DNA from: an uncultured Bacteroidales bacterium
GTDB lineage: Bacteria; Bacteroidota; Bacteroidia; Bacteroidales; Paludibacteraceae
Assembly: GCA_902782665.1 (NCBI GenBank)
Contig: CACZOA010000066.1
Span: 1-49,935, forward strand
Length of the DNA: 49,935 bases
Direction of reading: 5' to 3'
Part shown: positions 17,239-49,935 of the stretch, piece by piece
Position numbering within the stretch: position 1 is the first letter of the stretch
How the letters are laid out: each line of letters begins with the position of its first letter
Program-made: the position numbers and the translations under genes
The notes under the pieces: model-generated
What the model was told of the DNA's origin: nothing
The model's database searches: none
What the model saw: only the letters and a program-made list of their open reading frames with translations

Positions 17239-17709
17239 ATGAAAAAATTTCTATTTATTTTGGCGACGATGGTTGTTTCGTGCAGCGACAGACAGCCTCA
17301 AGAACAAGTTCAACCGACGGTGACAGAATCGTCGGCAGAAACAATCAGCGAGGACATTGATGCGAAAGCCATCGAAAAAATCCAAACATTCTACGGAAAC
17401 TATATTTTCGGCAGACAAGAGGCGACAGATTCCGTCATCGCACAGTATTGCACAAAAACACTGGCACAAAAGCTCCGTGACGACTACGACAACGAGTTCA
17501 GCGAAGGAGGAGGCTATGCCATCTGGGAATTCCGTAGCGGAGCACAGGATGGTGAAGACATCCAAGAGGTAGAGAAAATTGAAAATCTAGGAGAAAACAG
17601 ATATCTCGTCCACTATAATGACATGGGAAACAAGGGAACGCTCACTATTTCCACAATTGTCGAAAACAATGAGATCCTATTTGACAAATTGATCAATAAA
17701 GGAGAATAA
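17239..17709 (+). CDS. Small lipoprotein, DUF3828-like
   Basis: The 156-residue product starts with a lipoprotein signal (lipobox VVSC). The start at 17239 is used because an ATG two codons upstream only adds Met-Val. After a Gln/Thr/Ser-rich linker comes a small alpha/beta domain (FYGNYIFGR, CTKTLAQKLRDDYD, YLVHYNDMGNKGTLTI, ILFDKLINKGE) resembling DUF3828 or NTF2-like folds. It probably faces the periplasm and may act with the upstream sensor kinase. Function is unknown. Confidence 0.75.
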   Translation: MKKFLFILATMVVSCSDRQPQEQVQPTVTESSAETISEDIDAKAIEKIQTFYGNYIFGRQEATDSVIAQYCTKTLAQKLRDDYDNEFSEGGGYAIWEFRSGAQDGEDIQEVEKIENLGENRYLVHYNDMGNKGTLTISTIVENNEILFDKLINKGE

Positions 17710-17729
17710 GAAAATTTTCTTCTCAACTC

Positions 17730-17760
17730 TTTGTTGAATAACAAAAAAGATGTACTTTTG
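17730..17760 (+). promoter_or_regulatory. Bacteroidetes-type promoter of rplS
   Basis: TTTG at 17730-17733 and TACTTTTG at 17753-17760 are 19 bp apart. The leader to the start codon at 17844 is ~83 nt. The same promoter geometry and related leader sequence recur at 49010-49118. Confidence 0.75.
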
Positions 17761-17843
17761 TAACGTTTTTGCGTAACCGCTTATGATGGCAAGGAGCCTC
17801 GGTAATGTTGCGTTAAGTTAAATAAGAAAAAACAAATAAAAAA

Positions 17844-18197
17844 ATGGCAGTAGATTTGATTAAGATTGCTGAAGAGGCTTTCGCTACAAAGAAAGAGATC
17901 CCAGCATTCAAGAGTGGAGACACTATCACAGTTTCTTACCGTATCGTAGAGGGAAACAAGGAGCGTATCCAGCAGTTTAGAGGTGTTGTTATCCGTATCA
18001 GCGGACACCAGGACAAGAAGAGATTCACAGTACGTAAGATCTCTAGCGGTATAGGTGTAGAGAGAATCTTCCCTATGGAGTCACCTTTCATCGACAGCAT
18101 CCAGGTTAACAAGCTAGGTGTTGTACGTCGTGCTAAGCTTTACTACCTACGTAACCTTACAGGTAAGAAGGCAAGAATCAAAGAGAAAAGACAGTAA
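17844..18197 (+). CDS. rplS: 50S ribosomal protein L19
   Basis: The 117-residue product is a full-length bL19: [29 protein letters not shown], then a [16 protein letters not shown] block and [21 protein letters not shown]. It sits at the 30S-50S interface. Codon use is that of a highly expressed gene. It is monocistronic, with its own promoter and a strong terminator. A degenerate copy of its promoter, leader and first dozen codons seems to be present at 49010-49155. Confidence 0.98.
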
Positions 18198-18216: not shown

Positions 18217-18248
18217 AAAAAGCGTGTTTTCATACACGCTTTTTTTTT
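18217..18248 (+). terminator. Rho-independent terminator after rplS
   Basis: An 11-bp stem, AAAAAGCGTGT (18217-18227) with ACACGCTTTTT (18234-18244), encloses loop TTTCAT and continues into a T run. It separates rplS from the BspA-like gene, whose ATG is 29 bp beyond the T run. Confidence 0.9.
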
Positions 18249-18276
18249 GTACAAAAAATCCTATAATGAAAAAATT

Positions 18277-19186
18277 ATGGCAAGCAATCAACCTAAACAC
18301 GGCACACAATCAGACAACAAACGATTTTTCGACAAAAAATTCATTTTGACGATAGTGTTCATCGCCATAGTTTTTATCACTTTTAATTTTATTTCTACCA
18401 AACACACACAAGACAACAAATATAATATCATCAGTGAAACCGACAGGACTTGCCAGATCGACATCTCTGTGGAGCAGCCCATATTCTCGATGAATATTTT
18501 TGAGTTGGTCAAACACATTAAAAGAAATTCAAAAGAACTCATTATCCCAGAAAAAATTGACATCAACGAAAAAGAATACACTGTGGTCAAGATCACTGGC
18601 AGTACAGAAAAAAAAGTTTGAATCAGTCGTATTGCCAAACTCCTTGATAGAGATAGGAAACCATGCATTCTATGGTTGTTCAAGTCTGCAAACAATCAAT
18701 ATTCCGAATTCTGTGAAAAGCATTGCGAATGGGACATTCTCTTATTGCACTAACCTACAGACAGTCATCATTCCGGATTCTGTGAAAAGCATTGGGAATT
18801 GGGCATTCTATGGTTGCACTAACCTACAGACAGTCATCATTCCAAACTCTGTGAAAAGCATTGGAGGATGGGCATTCTACAGGTGTTCAAGTATAAAAGA
18901 AATCGACATTCCGGATTCTGTGGAAAGCATTGGGGATCAGGCATTCAAAGATTGTTTAAGCCTACAGACAGTCAACATTCCTAATTCTGTGAAAAGCATT
19001 GGGTATGGGGCATTCTATGGTTGTTCAAGTCTACAGACAGTCAACATTCCGAATTCTGTGAAAAGCATTGGAGATTGGGCATTCTACAGGTGTTCAAGCC
19101 TACAGACAGTCAACATTCCGGATTCTGTGGAAAGCATTGGGGATGGGGCATTCGAAGGGACTCCATTGGAAGAAAATAAACAATAA
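18277..19186 (+). pseudogene. BspA-like leucine-rich-repeat (LRR_5) protein, copy 1, frameshifted at an A8 tract
   Basis: Frame 1 runs from ATG 18277 to TGA 18621 (114 aa): a short cytoplasmic start MASNQPKHG, a transmembrane segment (about residues 22-42), then a linker ending KITGSTEKKV-stop. The LRR half continues in the +1 frame from about 18608 to 19186: FESVVLPNSL, then about eight 23-residue BspA-type repeats (SLQTVNIPNSVKSIGxxAFYGCS). Removing one A from the run at 18608-18615 joins both halves as ...STEKKFESVVLPNSL. Copy 2 at 49156 has the same architecture unbroken. The gene may be a pseudogene, phase-variable, rescued by slippage, or a sequencing error. BspA-like proteins are usually surface binding proteins, but here a type II signal-anchor topology is predicted. 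Confidence 0.8.
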
Positions 19187-19337
19187 AATTCGTCCATGAC
19201 AGAGTAATCCATACATGCCAAACATAAAATGGTTGTTTTCTGAACCTATGGCAGGCTTGTTAGTCTCTCAATTTTTCCGACAAAAAAAAGATACAGTGGA
19301 AAAAACAAACGTTTTCTCACACTTTAGGTGCGAAATA

Positions 19338-37319: not shown

Positions 37320-39320
37320 TTAAAATTTAAATTCTACCGATGCTTTATACGACCGTTTTGGCATAGGATAAAACCTCACCACCTCGTATTGTTTGTCTGT
37401 CAGATTAACGACGTCTCCTCTCAACCTCATATCAAATTTCTTAAAATCCAATGTTTTATAGAGAGTGACACCATGTTCTGCATAAGCCTCCATCATATTT
37501 GGTCTGATATTTTGAGGCAGATAATATCGTTTTCCCACAGCATTGACATTGTAGGACACATTTACAATCGGATTTTCAAAAGCAACGCTGCCATTTCCCG
37601 AATGTTTCGGAGTGTATGGGATCTGATGCTCATAAATATCCGATTTCGGATCAGTCAAATCAACAGCATATTGATAAGCGTATTTTGCGGTGAAAAACAA
37701 CGACGTGCGATCAGAAGTTTTCACTTCAAGATTAGTCATAAAATCCAATCCCTTGATCTCCACATATCCCATGTTCACAATGCTCCACACAAACATCTTC
37801 GGCATAGCCACGATCTTGTCGTCGACTTTATTGAAATATCCGTCTGCCGAAATCCCAAATGATTTCAAACGTCTTTTATCCGACCCATATTGGTACGTGA
37901 CACCGACATTGAATTGTTTCGTCTTCTCCGGATCAAGAGTCCTCGCCCCAAAAGAATTGAAATACAGTTCATTGAAAGTAGGCATTCGAAAAATATCTTT
38001 GTAAGAAGCTCTGAAATAAATAGAAGAAGCAAAAGGTTTATAGGAGACGGCAATGGAAGGAGACAGGTGTTGATAATTGTCCGGTGCTTCGCCTATCTCC
38101 ACTTGGTTGAAGTAGAATGAGCCCAGCAAAGTGGCTGTTGCCATCACCTTCTTGCTCTTAAATCTTCCGCTCAACGCATCCAGCAATGTATGACGCTGCG
38201 GGAAGACACAATCATAGATATTGGAGTTGAAACTATTAAGTATATAGTCGGTGGCGTTTGCCATCGAAAAATGTTCGGTAAAATTATGTCGCACCACCGC
38301 CGTTCCATACCACTCACGCTGGAAATAGCGGTTATCCAGTTTTCCTCCAGGATACATCATAGCCTCATCATGGTAGTAGCAACCATTCCAGTTGAATTTG
38401 CCACCGATTATCAACATCGTTCTATCCCAATCAGTGCGAGATACCACCTCTGCGAACGCATTCTTATCCTTCAAAGTCTCATTGCTCACTGTATTATAAT
38501 AAACCACACCTCCAGGCAAATCCCTGTCTGATACATAATAATGGATTTTGGCTCTTACTTGAGCCTTTGGTGATAAAAAATAGCGTCCAGACAACTCACC
38601 ATGCCCACACACAGACTCACTATGCTCACGTCGCTCCTCCGTCTTCAACGTACCATTGGTAAGAGTGTAGGGATAATTACCGTCGGCACGGGAAAAATCA
38701 GCTGATGCCTTGATTTTATTATTTTTATTTTCTCCAATTTTATGATCGAAAAACAGATGCGGATTGACGAAGCCGAATGATCCACCAGTGATTTTGGCAA
38801 CCACATGATAATTCTTATCAGTATAGTCCGGATCATAACTCATGAGGTTCAACACCGAAGGCGACACAAAATGTAAAGCAGAAGCATCTATTTCACAAAT
38901 TTCTCCTATATACAACCGAATCTCATCCAGTTGATCGAGAGAAAACCTTCCCAAATCCACCTGTCCATTCTGGCAATCTGTGACAGGCATTCCGTCGTAA
39001 CATACCAAAGTATGCTTGGCTCCAAGACCTCTCACAGAAACAGTTTTAAGTCCACCGATGCCACCATAATCCTTTATTTCAGCACCAGCCATACGGTACA
39101 CAGCATCCGATACACCTTGTAACGCAAGGCGATCTGATTTTTTAAGACTGAGAGTTTGAGTTGTGTTGGTGGTAGGTAATAATTCGCGACTTTCCCCCGT
39201 CACTACCACCTCATCTATTTTCGTATCAAAGGATATGCTGTCGGAAGGGTTTCCGTAGGCGACGCATACAGAACCCAACATAAAAGGAATAAAAAATACA
39301 GATCTGAAACTAATGCACAT
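37320..39320 (-). CDS. btuB: TonB-dependent cobalamin receptor BtuB-like
   Basis: The 666-residue outer-membrane receptor has a signal peptide (to about 23, AYG), a TonB-box-like stretch (IDEVVVTGES), a plug domain (YRMAGAEIKDYGGIGGLKTVSVRGLGAKHTLVCYDGMPV) and a ~22-strand barrel ending in the aromatic-terminated VEFKF. Barrel features such as FRMPTFNELYF are typical of BtuB/FepA-like receptors. It imports corrinoids with TonB energy. It is the first gene of the operon and lies directly downstream of the riboswitch. Confidence 0.9.
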   Translation of the reverse strand: MCISFRSVFFIPFMLGSVCVAYGNPSDSISFDTKIDEVVVTGESRELLPTTNTTQTLSLKKSDRLALQGVSDAVYRMAGAEIKDYGGIGGLKTVSVRGLGAKHTLVCYDGMPVTDCQNGQVDLGRFSLDQLDEIRLYIGEICEIDASALHFVSPSVLNLMSYDPDYTDKNYHVVAKITGGSFGFVNPHLFFDHKIGENKNNKIKASADFSRADGNYPYTLTNGTLKTEERREHSESVCGHGELSGRYFLSPKAQVRAKIHYYVSDRDLPGGVVYYNTVSNETLKDKNAFAEVVSRTDWDRTMLIIGGKFNWNGCYYHDEAMMYPGGKLDNRYFQREWYGTAVVRHNFTEHFSMANATDYILNSFNSNIYDCVFPQRHTLLDALSGRFKSKKVMATATLLGSFYFNQVEIGEAPDNYQHLSPSIAVSYKPFASSIYFRASYKDIFRMPTFNELYFNSFGARTLDPEKTKQFNVGVTYQYGSDKRRLKSFGISADGYFNKVDDKIVAMPKMFVWSIVNMGYVEIKGLDFMTNLEVKTSDRTSLFFTAKYAYQYAVDLTDPKSDIYEHQIPYTPKHSGNGSVAFENPIVNVSYNVNAVGKRYYLPQNIRPNMMEAYAEHGVTLYKTLDFKKFDMRLRGDVVNLTDKQYEVVRFYPMPKRSYKASVEFKF

Positions 39321-39454
39321 CCTATTGGCTGATTATTACCATATCAAACACACCAACCACGAATGAGCAAGACACATAAAGGAAAATACCAAAACAAAAC
39401 ATGAACCGTCGTCTTGGACAATCATCCTATTGCCTCTCCTCGGAAGCGTGTAGG

Positions 39455-39612
39455 TGTATGTTGTTTTGCAGGTCTTCTGACTTCCTTCAATCGCTCGCCT
39501 TCCCATCAATCATGACAGTGGCATTTTTGTAAATGAACGATCCTCTACTAAAGGTTACAGCAGCGGGACTGTCCGGGACTCTCACCCGATTCCCTTTTAA
39601 TCCGAAACGAAA
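39455..39612 (-). ncRNA. Cobalamin (AdoCbl-type) riboswitch
   Basis: On the minus strand the leader contains GGGAATCGGGTGAGAGTCCCGGACAGTCCCGCTGCTGTAA (read in parts at about 39560-39598) and the B12 box AGTCAGAAGACCTGC (complement of 39468-39482). These are the most conserved pieces of the cobalamin aptamer. It lies 135 bp upstream of btuB. When B12 is bound, expression of the whole operon should fall. A -7-like box TATCTTTG (minus strand, 39636-39643) lies just upstream. Confidence 0.93.
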
Positions 39613-39656
39613 TACGAGTCGGAACAAAACGGATGCAAAGATACAAAAAAATACGA

Positions 39657-47149: not shown

Positions 47150-48904
47150 ATGAAAAATACAACAAGTATAATATTAGCATTATCCGCTGCGTTCTGCAGT
47201 TTATCGGCACAAGAGAAACAGACTGCAAAAGACACAACTGCCATGTTGAGAGACACAGCAGCGTCGATAAAGCCACAACCACAAAAAATAGACTTAACCC
47301 TTCCTCTTTGGGAGCCACAAAACAAATATCTAAGTCTTGGATTTAGCGGCGGTCTCAGCACATTGAAATACGACCCTAAAGATTGCGACCGTTCACCAAT
47401 GGCAGGAGGATCAATCAACATTGACTACAACGTCTTCTTTGGCAAGAAATGGGGACTATCTTTCGGAGTCGGAGCCTCAGTATACAATGCCAAAACGATT
47501 ATCGACACACGATTCGTGTCTTCTGAAAAAATTCCTGTGACTCTTTCCGATGGTACAACCTCAATAGAAGAGAGCGAGTTATATACTGACTTCAAAAATT
47601 GGGAAGAGAGACAGACTTGTATAGCTTTAGAATCGCCAATCGGACTCCTTTACCGCAGATACTTGGGTGGCAACACCACTCTACTTACCGGAGCTGGATT
47701 GAAATTATCATATCCGATGAAGACAAGTTACAGGGTAAAGACAGGAACCCGTCAAACGAGCGGATACATAGAGGATGCTGACTTGTATATCAATCCAGAC
47801 ATTCCTCAGCATGGTTACGCGACAAAATATGAGCGTCCAAGCGGAACCACAAGCACAAAAAATGTCTCAGCAGGAATATACCTTGATATAAACTTTGTGC
47901 ATAAGACTGCCAATGCCAATTTCTTCTATGGAGTCTATGGAAATCTCGGTCTGTCAAGCATAACCAAAAACGAAGGCAAATCATTGACAGACGCAAAAGA
48001 ATACTGCGGATTGTTGGCATCCAATTCCGTCGACGCTGCAAATCTTAATTCTATAGGAGTACGACTCGGAGTAAAAATCCCTTGTCCAAGACTCAGAGAT
48101 GATGACAACGACGGTGTGCTAGACAAAGTCGACAAATGTCTTGGAACTCCAGCCAACGTAGCGGTGGATTCATGTGGTTGTCCGCTCGACACTGACAAAG
48201 ACAGCGTCCCTGATTACCTTGACCAATGTCCGAACACACCTATGGGAGTAAAGGTAGATTCAGTAGGATGTCCGATCGACACTGATAAAGACGGAGTTCC
48301 TGACTATCTTGACAGATGTCCAAACACACCTGACACCATACAAGTAGATTCAGTAGGATGTCCTGTAGACTCTGATGGCGACGGTGTTGCTGATTACCTT
48401 GACAAGTGTCCAGACACACCTAAAGAGGCAGAGGTTGACACTTGCGGATGTCCAGTCGACACAGATGGAGACGAAGTGCCAGACTACCTCGACAAATGTC
48501 CGACAGTAAAAGGTTCAGTCAAGAATAACGGATGCCCTATAGTTTCCGCAAAAAACAAAGCGGTGCTAAAAAAAGCGGTGCACGGAATACAGTTTGAGAC
48601 AAACAACGCAGTCATCAAGTCATCGTCATATCCGATTCTCAACAAAGTGGTGACAATGATGAAAAAGAATCCGTCATACAAGCTGCACATCTCCGGACAC
48701 ACCGACAATGTCGGCAAGCCAGCACAAAACTTGAAGTTGTCGAAAGAAAGAGCCGCTGCAGTAGTGAAATATCTAACGAAAAAAGGAATCAAATCGTCAA
48801 GATTGAGAAGTGATGGATTTGGAGGAACAAAACCAGTGGCATCAAACAAGACGGAAAAAGGAAAAGCGTTAAACAGACGAGTTGACTTTGAAGTGGAATT
48901 CTAA
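47150..48904 (+). CDS. OmpA-family outer membrane protein with thrombospondin type 3 repeats
   Basis: The 584-residue protein has a signal peptide (to about 21, LSAQ), a beta-barrel-like N-terminal domain (about 55-305, ending RLGVKIPCPRL), five or so calcium-type TSP3 units of the form DTDKDSVPDYLDQCPNTP...VDSxGCP (about 310-455) and a C-terminal OmpA domain (VHGIQFETNNAVIKSSSYPIL, HISGHTDNVGKPAQNLKLSKERAAAVVKYL, GKALNRRVDFEVEF) that binds peptidoglycan. It should anchor the outer membrane to the cell wall. It is the partner gene of the preceding Ig-like secreted protein. Confidence 0.92.
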   Translation: MKNTTSIILALSAAFCSLSAQEKQTAKDTTAMLRDTAASIKPQPQKIDLTLPLWEPQNKYLSLGFSGGLSTLKYDPKDCDRSPMAGGSINIDYNVFFGKKWGLSFGVGASVYNAKTIIDTRFVSSEKIPVTLSDGTTSIEESELYTDFKNWEERQTCIALESPIGLLYRRYLGGNTTLLTGAGLKLSYPMKTSYRVKTGTRQTSGYIEDADLYINPDIPQHGYATKYERPSGTTSTKNVSAGIYLDINFVHKTANANFFYGVYGNLGLSSITKNEGKSLTDAKEYCGLLASNSVDAANLNSIGVRLGVKIPCPRLRDDDNDGVLDKVDKCLGTPANVAVDSCGCPLDTDKDSVPDYLDQCPNTPMGVKVDSVGCPIDTDKDGVPDYLDRCPNTPDTIQVDSVGCPVDSDGDGVADYLDKCPDTPKEAEVDTCGCPVDTDGDEVPDYLDKCPTVKGSVKNNGCPIVSAKNKAVLKKAVHGIQFETNNAVIKSSSYPILNKVVTMMKKNPSYKLHISGHTDNVGKPAQNLKLSKERAAAVVKYLTKKGIKSSRLRSDGFGGTKPVASNKTEKGKALNRRVDFEVEF

Positions 48905-48917
48905 TGACAAAAAATCA

Positions 48918-48959
48918 TCACCCACGGTTGCGGTATCCATACCTGCCAACCGTGGGTGA
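48918..48959 (+). terminator. Terminator-like hairpin after the OmpA gene
   Basis: TCACCCACGGTTG (48918-48930) pairs perfectly with CAACCGTGGGTGA (48947-48959); the loop holds a further GGTAT/ATACC stem. The T tract after it is weak. Confidence 0.7.
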
Positions 48960-49009
48960 ATTTCATATGTGGATAGATAAAAATATTAACATTTATTCAC
49001 CATTATCTT

Positions 49010-49040
49010 TTTGTCATACAACAGGAAAGAGATAATTTTG
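49010..49040 (+). promoter_or_regulatory. Promoter of BspA-like copy 2, similar to the rplS promoter
   Basis: TTTG (49010-49013) and TAATTTTG (49033-49040) are 19 bp apart, exactly as at rplS. The following leader aligns with the rplS leader around a shared TTTATGATG and TCGG..ATG. Confidence 0.65.
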
Positions 49041-49084
49041 TATTGTTTTTCTAGACCGTTTATGATGACTTATACACATCGGCG

Positions 49085-49216
49085 ATGACACTTCAAGAGG
49101 AATATGAAAAACAAAAATTGGCAATAGATTTGATAAAAATCGCAGAAAAAGCTTTATGGCAAACCAGCACACCGAATCAGACAAAAAAACGATTTTCAAC
49201 AAAAAATTCATTTTGA
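49085..49216 (+). other. 43-codon ORF carrying an rplS 5'-end remnant
   Basis: The ORF MTLQEEYEKQKLAIDLIKIAEKALWQT... contains LAIDLIKIAEKAL, matching [13 protein letters not shown] at the start of L19. The DNA match over 37 bp is about 78%, and several differences are synonymous in the L19 frame. The ORF then runs out of frame into the start of the BspA-like gene (ATG 49156). It is too short to be a working L19. It may be a relic, or a coupled leader. Confidence 0.55.
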
Positions 49217-49935
49217 CGATTACAACCTTCGCCATAATCCTTCTCATTGTACATCATTTTATTTCTACACTAATCCCAAAAGAGAGAACATACAGGATCA
49301 TCAGTGAAAACAATGGACCTTACATGATAGTCCCCTCAGTGGAGCCGTCTATCTTCACAATGAATATTTTTGAGTTAATCAATCACTTCTTTAATCCTCC
49401 TATAGATAAAGAAACGTTTTGTAATATAAAGAATATTTCATTGCCGGACACAATGCAAACCATTCCAAACGGTGCATTCACATATTGCTCTAATCTACAA
49501 ACTGTCAACATTCCTAATTCTGTGAAAAAAATTGGGAATGAAGCATTTTATGGTTGCTCAAATCTACAAACAATCAACATGGAAAGCATTGGAGACTGGG
49601 CATTTCAGAACTGTTCAAGTCTAAAAGAAATCAACATTCCAAATTCTGTGGAAAGCATTGGAGACTGGGCATTTCAGAACTGTTCAAGTCTAAAAGAAAT
49701 CAACATCCCGAATTCTGTGAAAAGCATTGGGTATAAAGCATTTTCTGATTGTGCAAGTCTAAAAGAAATCAACATCCCAAATTCTGTGGAAAGCATTGGG
49801 AATGGGGCATTTGAGAACTGTTCAAGTCTAAAAGAAATCAGCATTCCGAATTCTGTGAAAAGCATTGGGAATGGAACATTCCACGGTTGTTCAAGCCTGC
49901 AAACAATCAATATTCCAGATTCTGTGAAAAGCATT
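49156..49935 (+). CDS. BspA-like leucine-rich-repeat protein, copy 2 (partial, cut at window end)
   Basis: From ATG 49156 the frame stays open for 260 codons to the window edge. It begins MANQHTESDKKTIFNKKFILTI, has a transmembrane segment (about residues 16-36) and an extracytoplasmic linker, then BspA-type 23-residue repeats (SLKEINIPNSVESIGxxAFQNCS) from about residue 95. The first 100 residues align with copy 1 at 18277 but without its frameshift. One repeat is shortened (TINMESIG in place of TINIPNSVESIG), an in-frame deletion. The membrane-anchor topology differs from classical secreted BspA. Confidence 0.85.
   Translation, partial: MANQHTESDKKTIFNKKFILTITTFAIILLIVHHFISTLIPKERTYRIISENNGPYMIVPSVEPSIFTMNIFELINHFFNPPIDKETFCNIKNISLPDTMQTIPNGAFTYCSNLQTVNIPNSVKKIGNEAFYGCSNLQTINMESIGDWAFQNCSSLKEINIPNSVESIGDWAFQNCSSLKEINIPNSVKSIGYKAFSDCASLKEINIPNSVESIGNGAFENCSSLKEISIPNSVKSIGNGTFHGCSSLQTINIPDSVKSI

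Follow-up and report, generated by a model that had tools for sequence, protein, structure and literature searches.

An old copy of the rplS promoter, leader and first codons, its leader fold decayed, lies in front of a bspA-type gene in a Paludibacteraceae genus

The stretch of DNA analysed here (the window; 49,935 bases) is one whole contig of a 3.33-Mb draft genome with 114 contigs, from an uncultured bacterium of the Paludibacteraceae. We refer to this genome as G000 and compare it with a genus set of nine genomes, G000 included. Two regions of the window concern us, and their features are collected in Table 1. In the first, rplS is followed by a bspA-type gene (bspA copy 1) whose repeats run on in another frame up to 19186. 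In the second, which we call copy 2, sequence resembling the promoter, leader and first codons of rplS stands between an OmpA-like gene and another bspA-type gene (bspA copy 2) that runs off the contig. A reading of the letters without database searches, hereafter the sequence-only reading, had a bspA-like gene following in both places, and this is the arrangement we find: the second gene has its ATG at 49156, and the intact rplS and its terminator stand ahead of the gene at 18277. That terminator is not the same in relatives without bspA copy 1. At gathering level, Rfam models matched a cobalamin riboswitch alone in the window (RF00174, 100.2 bits; 39450-39644, minus strand), ahead of a minus-strand ORF at 37320-39320.

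Table 1. Features of the rplS region and of copy 2, in window coordinates.
Feature	Position	Strand	Basis
rplS promoter TTTG-N19-TACTTTTG, Bacteroidota -33/-7 type	17730..17760	+	sequence; consensus in PMC7366714
L19-type r-leader RNA of rplS	17770..17815	+	R1 model 48.6 bits; covariation
rplS (ribosomal protein L19)	17844..18197	+	PF01245 3.2e-45
rplS terminator, hairpin and T-run	18217..18248	+	sequence
bspA copy 1 head, frame broken in G000	18277..18621	+	stop 18619-18621
Copy-1 segment, missing at corresponding place in G003	18248..19337	+	alignment to 18247, again from 19338
OmpA-like gene, left neighbour of copy 2	47150..48904	+	PF00691, TSP_3
Copied rplS-type promoter TTTG-N19-TAATTTTG	49010..49040	+	alignment with rplS 5' region
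Former L19 r-leader, fold lost	49049..49095	+	R1 model 2.3 bits at most, unfiltered
Stub of rplS codons 1-12 (AIDLIKIAEKA...), fused to bspA start	49118..49155	+	28/36 identical to rplS
43-codon ORF, ATG 49085 to TGA 49216	49085..49216	+	open in G000 only, among 3 genomes with the locus
bspA copy 2, hydrophobic N-terminal head followed by LRR_5 repeats	49156..49935	+	LRR_5 2e-58

The TTTG-N19-TAnTTTTG geometry that the sequence-only reading ascribed to both promoters is present at both, with TTTG at 17730-17733, 19 bases and TACTTTTG at 17753-17760 ahead of rplS, and TTTG at 49010-49013, 19 bases and TAATTTTG at 49033-49040 in copy 2. It fits the Bacteroides promoter consensus TTTG / TAnnTTTG as given in PMC7366714. 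Beyond the promoters, 17730-17879 (rplS promoter, leader and 12 codons) aligns with 49010-49155 over about 150 bases. The promoter block of copy 2 is identical to that of the window's rplS at 24 of 35 positions, the r-leader block, which is the worst kept, at 27 of 46, and the A-rich stretch at 17 of 22, with 6 gap columns. The likeness to the first 12 L19 codons, put at about 78% and placed at 49121-49156 when the sequence was first read, lies at that position and amounts to 28 of 36 bases (78%). The rplS ATG matches a TTG at 49118, and rplS-like sequence meets bspA at a fusion point between GCTTT and ATGGC. Since both leaders are AT-rich and the promoter consensus, as given in PMC7366714, is a common one, a chance likeness of two AT-rich promoters joined to a short coding match had to be weighed. 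The alignment of 17700-17960 with 48906-49175 scores 62 (scoring 2/-3/-5/-2), whereas 2000 dinucleotide shuffles gave a mean of 19.7 and a maximum of 36 (0/2000 at or above 62), and among 726 segment scores along both strands of the window only two segments, both overlapping the finding, exceeded 29, the score of the next best segment. We therefore reject chance likeness, whose probability we regard as negligible, and on these alignments we consider the homology of the rplS 5' region and copy 2 to be beyond reasonable doubt.

From its likeness and its position, we read the rplS leader as probably an L19 autoregulatory leader. Of 30 rplS loci, 24 yielded extracted leaders, the six left out beforehand being mostly close duplicates and one lacking a readable start; 22 leaders were aligned, two identical to the window's being left out. 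The aligned leaders form a two-helix fold of 14 pairs, 8 of which have changes on both sides. In this fold 95.7% of cells are paired compared with 22.8-48.7% when the partner is slid, a comparison in which the fold is favoured because it was derived from the same alignment; four of five covariation measures lie above all 500 shuffles, and the fifth (further pair types) does not. With strict filters, the R1 model of this leader, which has the window's rplS leader (48.6 bits) among its building sequences, finds a single match per genome in 61 of 101 family genomes and has no match in the other 40. Fifty-eight of the 61 matches sit 22-37 bases ahead of L19; as for the remaining ones, an L19 start is seen in the locus for G065 and G080, and a start follows the match for G061. 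A motif check covering 30 loci recovered an L19 start in 29, the exception (G038) belonging to the 58.

According to PMC7247131, the L19 leader of Firmicutes is also found in Flavobacteria. With the corresponding Rfam family, RF03130 (L19-Flavobacteria), the rplS leaders of the family genomes have in common the core AAC-CUC-U ... A-U-GUU and a pair of stacked helices immediately upstream of rplS. One of nine rplS loci tested passes the Rfam model, namely L174 of G030 (32.2 bits, cut-off 31.5, E 0.018), whereas the window's own rplS leader falls short of it and has no RF03130 match at gathering score. Copy 2 differs further from this family in keeping the ancestry but neither the fold nor rplS. 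As a separate observation, the 3' arm of the rplS leader helix (17805-17816, ATGTTGCGTTAA) spells a tiny M-L-R-stop frame in all nine genus genomes, probably a by-product of the RNA helix.

In copy 2, the L19 r-leader fold is lost. With default filters, R1 gave no match to copy 2 in the window, L018 or L019, and when the filters were removed for 48960-49240, a search that covered the window's copy only, the best score was 2.3 bits compared with 48.6 for the rplS leader. The outer helix keeps 2 of 7 pairs in G000 and 3 of 7 in G001 and G004. Among rplS genes this block is steady (43 of 46 positions identical between G000 and G006), yet it is the most changed one in copy 2, where 27-29 of 46 positions are kept, which argues that constraint on it ended after copying. 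The loss may have been neutral decay or a favoured escape from feedback. With this fold gone, an rplS-like control of bspA, should the sequence-only reading imply one, is not supported. Feedback by L19 through the copied leader could still be argued from the ancestry of the leader, from ACCG.TTATGATG.C, which is kept, and from TCGG..ATG, kept in two of the three copies; set against the missing model match and the 2-3 of 7 outer-helix pairs in all three copies, we hold such control to be very improbable.

The stub of L19 codons has fared differently from the open reading frame around it. The 43-codon ORF that had been taken for the surviving remnant is present in the window but is not supported as such, its codon 4 being TAA in G001 and G004; a TAA also stands at the corresponding place of the rplS leader. 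Only a TTG-initiated frame, which with its stop spans 33 codons (49118-49216), stays open in each of the three copies. In codons 2-12, six of seven stub differences from rplS are A in copy 2, two of which (AAA and GCA) also occur in the rplS of G006 and may be old. We think that the A-rich stub would serve as the translation start region of bspA and that its reading frame is probably a relic. Were the stub instead to function as a leader peptide or upstream ORF, steering bspA translation by overlap (TTG 49118 to TGA 49216), the frame's being open in 3/3 copies, its overlap of 61 bases with the bspA start and the third-position location of five of the seven differences would all fit. That reading nevertheless seems to us improbable: the longer ATG-started frame is closed in two of three copies, the ATG is now TTG, silent change in rplS itself would in any case produce an excess of third-position differences, and three near-identical sequences carry little power.

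Copy 2 recurs in relatives, its leader being found at 96-98% identity in two of the eight other genus genomes, G001 and G004, where it precedes the same bspA gene as in the window; the best remaining matches in the nine genomes are all short. A relative carrying this leader without any L19 likeness was not seen among them, the L19 codons being kept in all three copies (37-38 of 38 bases identical in pairwise comparison). The promoter block is identical at 35 of 35 positions between the window and G001. Between species, the copy-2 leader is 96.5-97.4% and the bspA head 93.5-95.9% identical, and because the two are similarly conserved, selection on the leader is not demonstrated. All three copies come from draft genomes, and the contig end truncates the one in the window. 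In the open-access literature searched, we did not find a bspA gene behind an rplS 5' stub.

The OmpA-like gene is also found in relatives without copy 2. Behind it, the site is empty in G002 and G008, where shared sequence returns after about 65-80 bases, and other genes occupy it in G003 (L149) and G005 (L153), so that genes may turn over often at this site. The left neighbour of copy 2 in G004 is not the OmpA-like gene. We take the next gene at the site, which begins MVRAIFPGSFDPLTLGH, to be coaD. Copy 2 is flanked in G001, and in part in G004, by a direct repeat of 105-145 bases (L140 and L143: G001:C39 94010-94162 and 95690-95794; G004:C1 162725-162869 and 161068-161110); pieces of it, 30-43 bases long, recur elsewhere, with some match in eight of the nine genus genomes.

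Both bspA genes resemble BspA-type leucine-rich repeat proteins in their repeat region (PF13306, LRR_5), which scores 196.2 bits in copy 2 and 254.5 bits, in the second frame, in copy 1 against a curated cut-off of 27.7. They differ from such proteins in the N-terminal head, whose hydrophobic stretch is visible in the sequence of copy 2, and the product is predicted from sequence to be a repeat-rich, membrane-anchored protein. At E <= 0.001, the 82-residue head of copy 2 is found in this genus only, as six copies in 4 of 150 family genomes, of which three follow an intact rplS and three the rplS stub. Copy 1 lies behind rplS in G000, G001 and G002 and is absent there in the other six genus genomes; its frame is broken in G000 and, elsewhere in the gene, in G002, but G001 has it open. 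The copy-2 frame is unbroken in the three genomes that have it (441 aa in G001, 467 aa in G004 and to the contig end in the window). In both heads, differences are scattered over codon positions, and purifying selection on the head protein is thus not seen.

We compared copy 2 with the rplS 5' regions of the nine genus genomes and of 22 others, the latter being the best L19 matches plus G103. The best scores of the three copies (74, 82 and 83) were reached with genus members, G001 and G002 first, and regions outside the genus gave at most 49, which does not support an origin in another genus. These scores point to a copy that arose within the genus, possibly on the side of G001 and G002, which has the rplS-bspA arrangement. 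G006, the deepest member of the genus, scored 39-49 against copy 2, and G103, of another genus, came slightly above it for two of the three copies. An A-V following the start methionine, lacking in 20 rplS starts read outside the genus, was considered as a genus-specific mark and is weakened as such by G103, which starts M-A-K-D. An IQ-TREE tree of 12 leaders set copy 2 apart from rplS at one starred split and resolved no more, FastTree placed it beside the rplS of G001 and G002 at 0.906, and the tree placement of the event is not firm.

Both bspA genes look to have been exchanged horizontally with the G001/G002 side, judging by third-position differences in their heads that are far lower than in neighbouring genes. 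Between the window and G001, the copy-1 head differs at 2.0% of third positions and the copy-2 head at 4.9%, compared with 20-42% in ten neighbouring genes and 2.5% in rplS; between the window and G002, the copy-1 head differs by 1.0%, compared with 20-38% in eight comparable neighbours. Species that share the copy-1 head at 97% identity have neighbouring genes strongly diverged at third positions, and G003 and G004, the closest relatives by those genes, are without copy 1. Between the window and G004 the copy-2 head differs by 4.9%, within the neighbour range of 2.5-8.1%; as this is ordinary for that pair, exchange of copy 2 is indicated only for G001. On the left of copy 1, the switch point lies between base 240 of rplS, the last site siding with G003 and G008, and the terminator, a stretch in which the six genomes compared differ at two sites only, each in one genome. 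Homologous recombination in the 3' end of rplS is likely to have been the anchor for the copy-1 transfer. A large-scale assembly chimera at rplS is unlikely, given that both sides of copy 1 are closest to G003/G004 and that in G001 copies 1 and 2 share one 163-kb contig; a small chimera confined to the copy-1 segment is conceivable.

The reading that we favour, at a probability of roughly 0.7, is that an ancestral rplS-bspA unit was copied, trimmed and stripped of its leader RNA by decay, and then moved between species. Chimeric genes and promoter capture by partial duplication are a general process. In an ancestor within this genus, perhaps on the G001/G002 side, a bspA-type gene would have stood directly behind rplS, and the promoter, leader, rplS and bspA would have been copied to a place some 31 kb away (34 kb in G001), behind an ompA-like gene. 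Everything between codon 12 of rplS and the start of bspA would then have been lost, fusing bspA to the 5' end of rplS, with its promoter, its leader and 12 codons, after which the L19-type leader RNA in the copy would have decayed. Most likely, bspA would thereby retain a promoter that is strong and tied to growth, together with an A-rich start region, and escape L19 feedback, and the trimmed unit would later have moved between species. Homology, shared neighbours, occurrence in three species, loss of the RNA fold and a patchy distribution with little third-position divergence from G001 are observed, and from them we infer the order of these events, the activity of the copy-2 promoter and the escape from feedback; transcription of the copy-2 bspA gene from an rplS-type promoter would accordingly be strong and follow growth rate.

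The duplication proposed by the sequence-only reading, namely of rplS with its bspA followed by loss of the L19 body, is partly borne out by the common 5' ancestry, the pairing with bspA, the origin within the genus and the kept -33/-7 promoter. Its remaining part, that a whole rplS was once present and then deleted, would have to be supposed: each of the nine genus genomes has one L19 match (E <= 0.001), and none of them holds an intermediate in which a second rplS is still whole, which leaves the order of duplication and then loss likely but unproven. Direct capture, in which recombination set only the 5' end of rplS before an existing bspA gene and a second full rplS never existed, would look the same, and would also suit the missing intermediate and the likeness of the two bspA genes, which by eye begins only at the ATG. 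Under direct capture, however, it would take a coincidence for both kinds of bspA gene with this head to lie directly behind rplS sequence, and we consider it unlikely; three heads behind rplS and three behind the stub are most simply accounted for by a single ancestral rplS-bspA unit.

Under the duplication reading, the locus resembles other cases of promoter capture by partial duplication in that a gene gained the promoter and 5' end of another, and differs from them in its donor, a ribosomal-protein gene, and in that the donor's autoregulatory RNA was carried over with the promoter and has decayed. More tentatively, with the RNA dismantled and the promoter and start region kept, a feedback-free, growth-coupled cassette may have passed among presumed rumen species, and its sister copy may have moved with the near-identical 3' end of rplS serving as one recombination anchor. 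For the family, a covariation-supported form in Paludibacteraceae now adds to the L19 leaders described in Firmicutes and Flavobacteria, one that the Rfam model missed in eight of the nine loci tested. For these bacteria, an accessory gene is present in some genomes and missing in others after a ribosomal-protein gene that hardly varies, and an accessory repeat-protein gene would have acquired a ribosomal-protein promoter in a natural case where the donor's feedback RNA can be traced both intact and decayed. It would be a clear and instructive, if small, instance of a captured promoter whose accompanying regulator has decayed.
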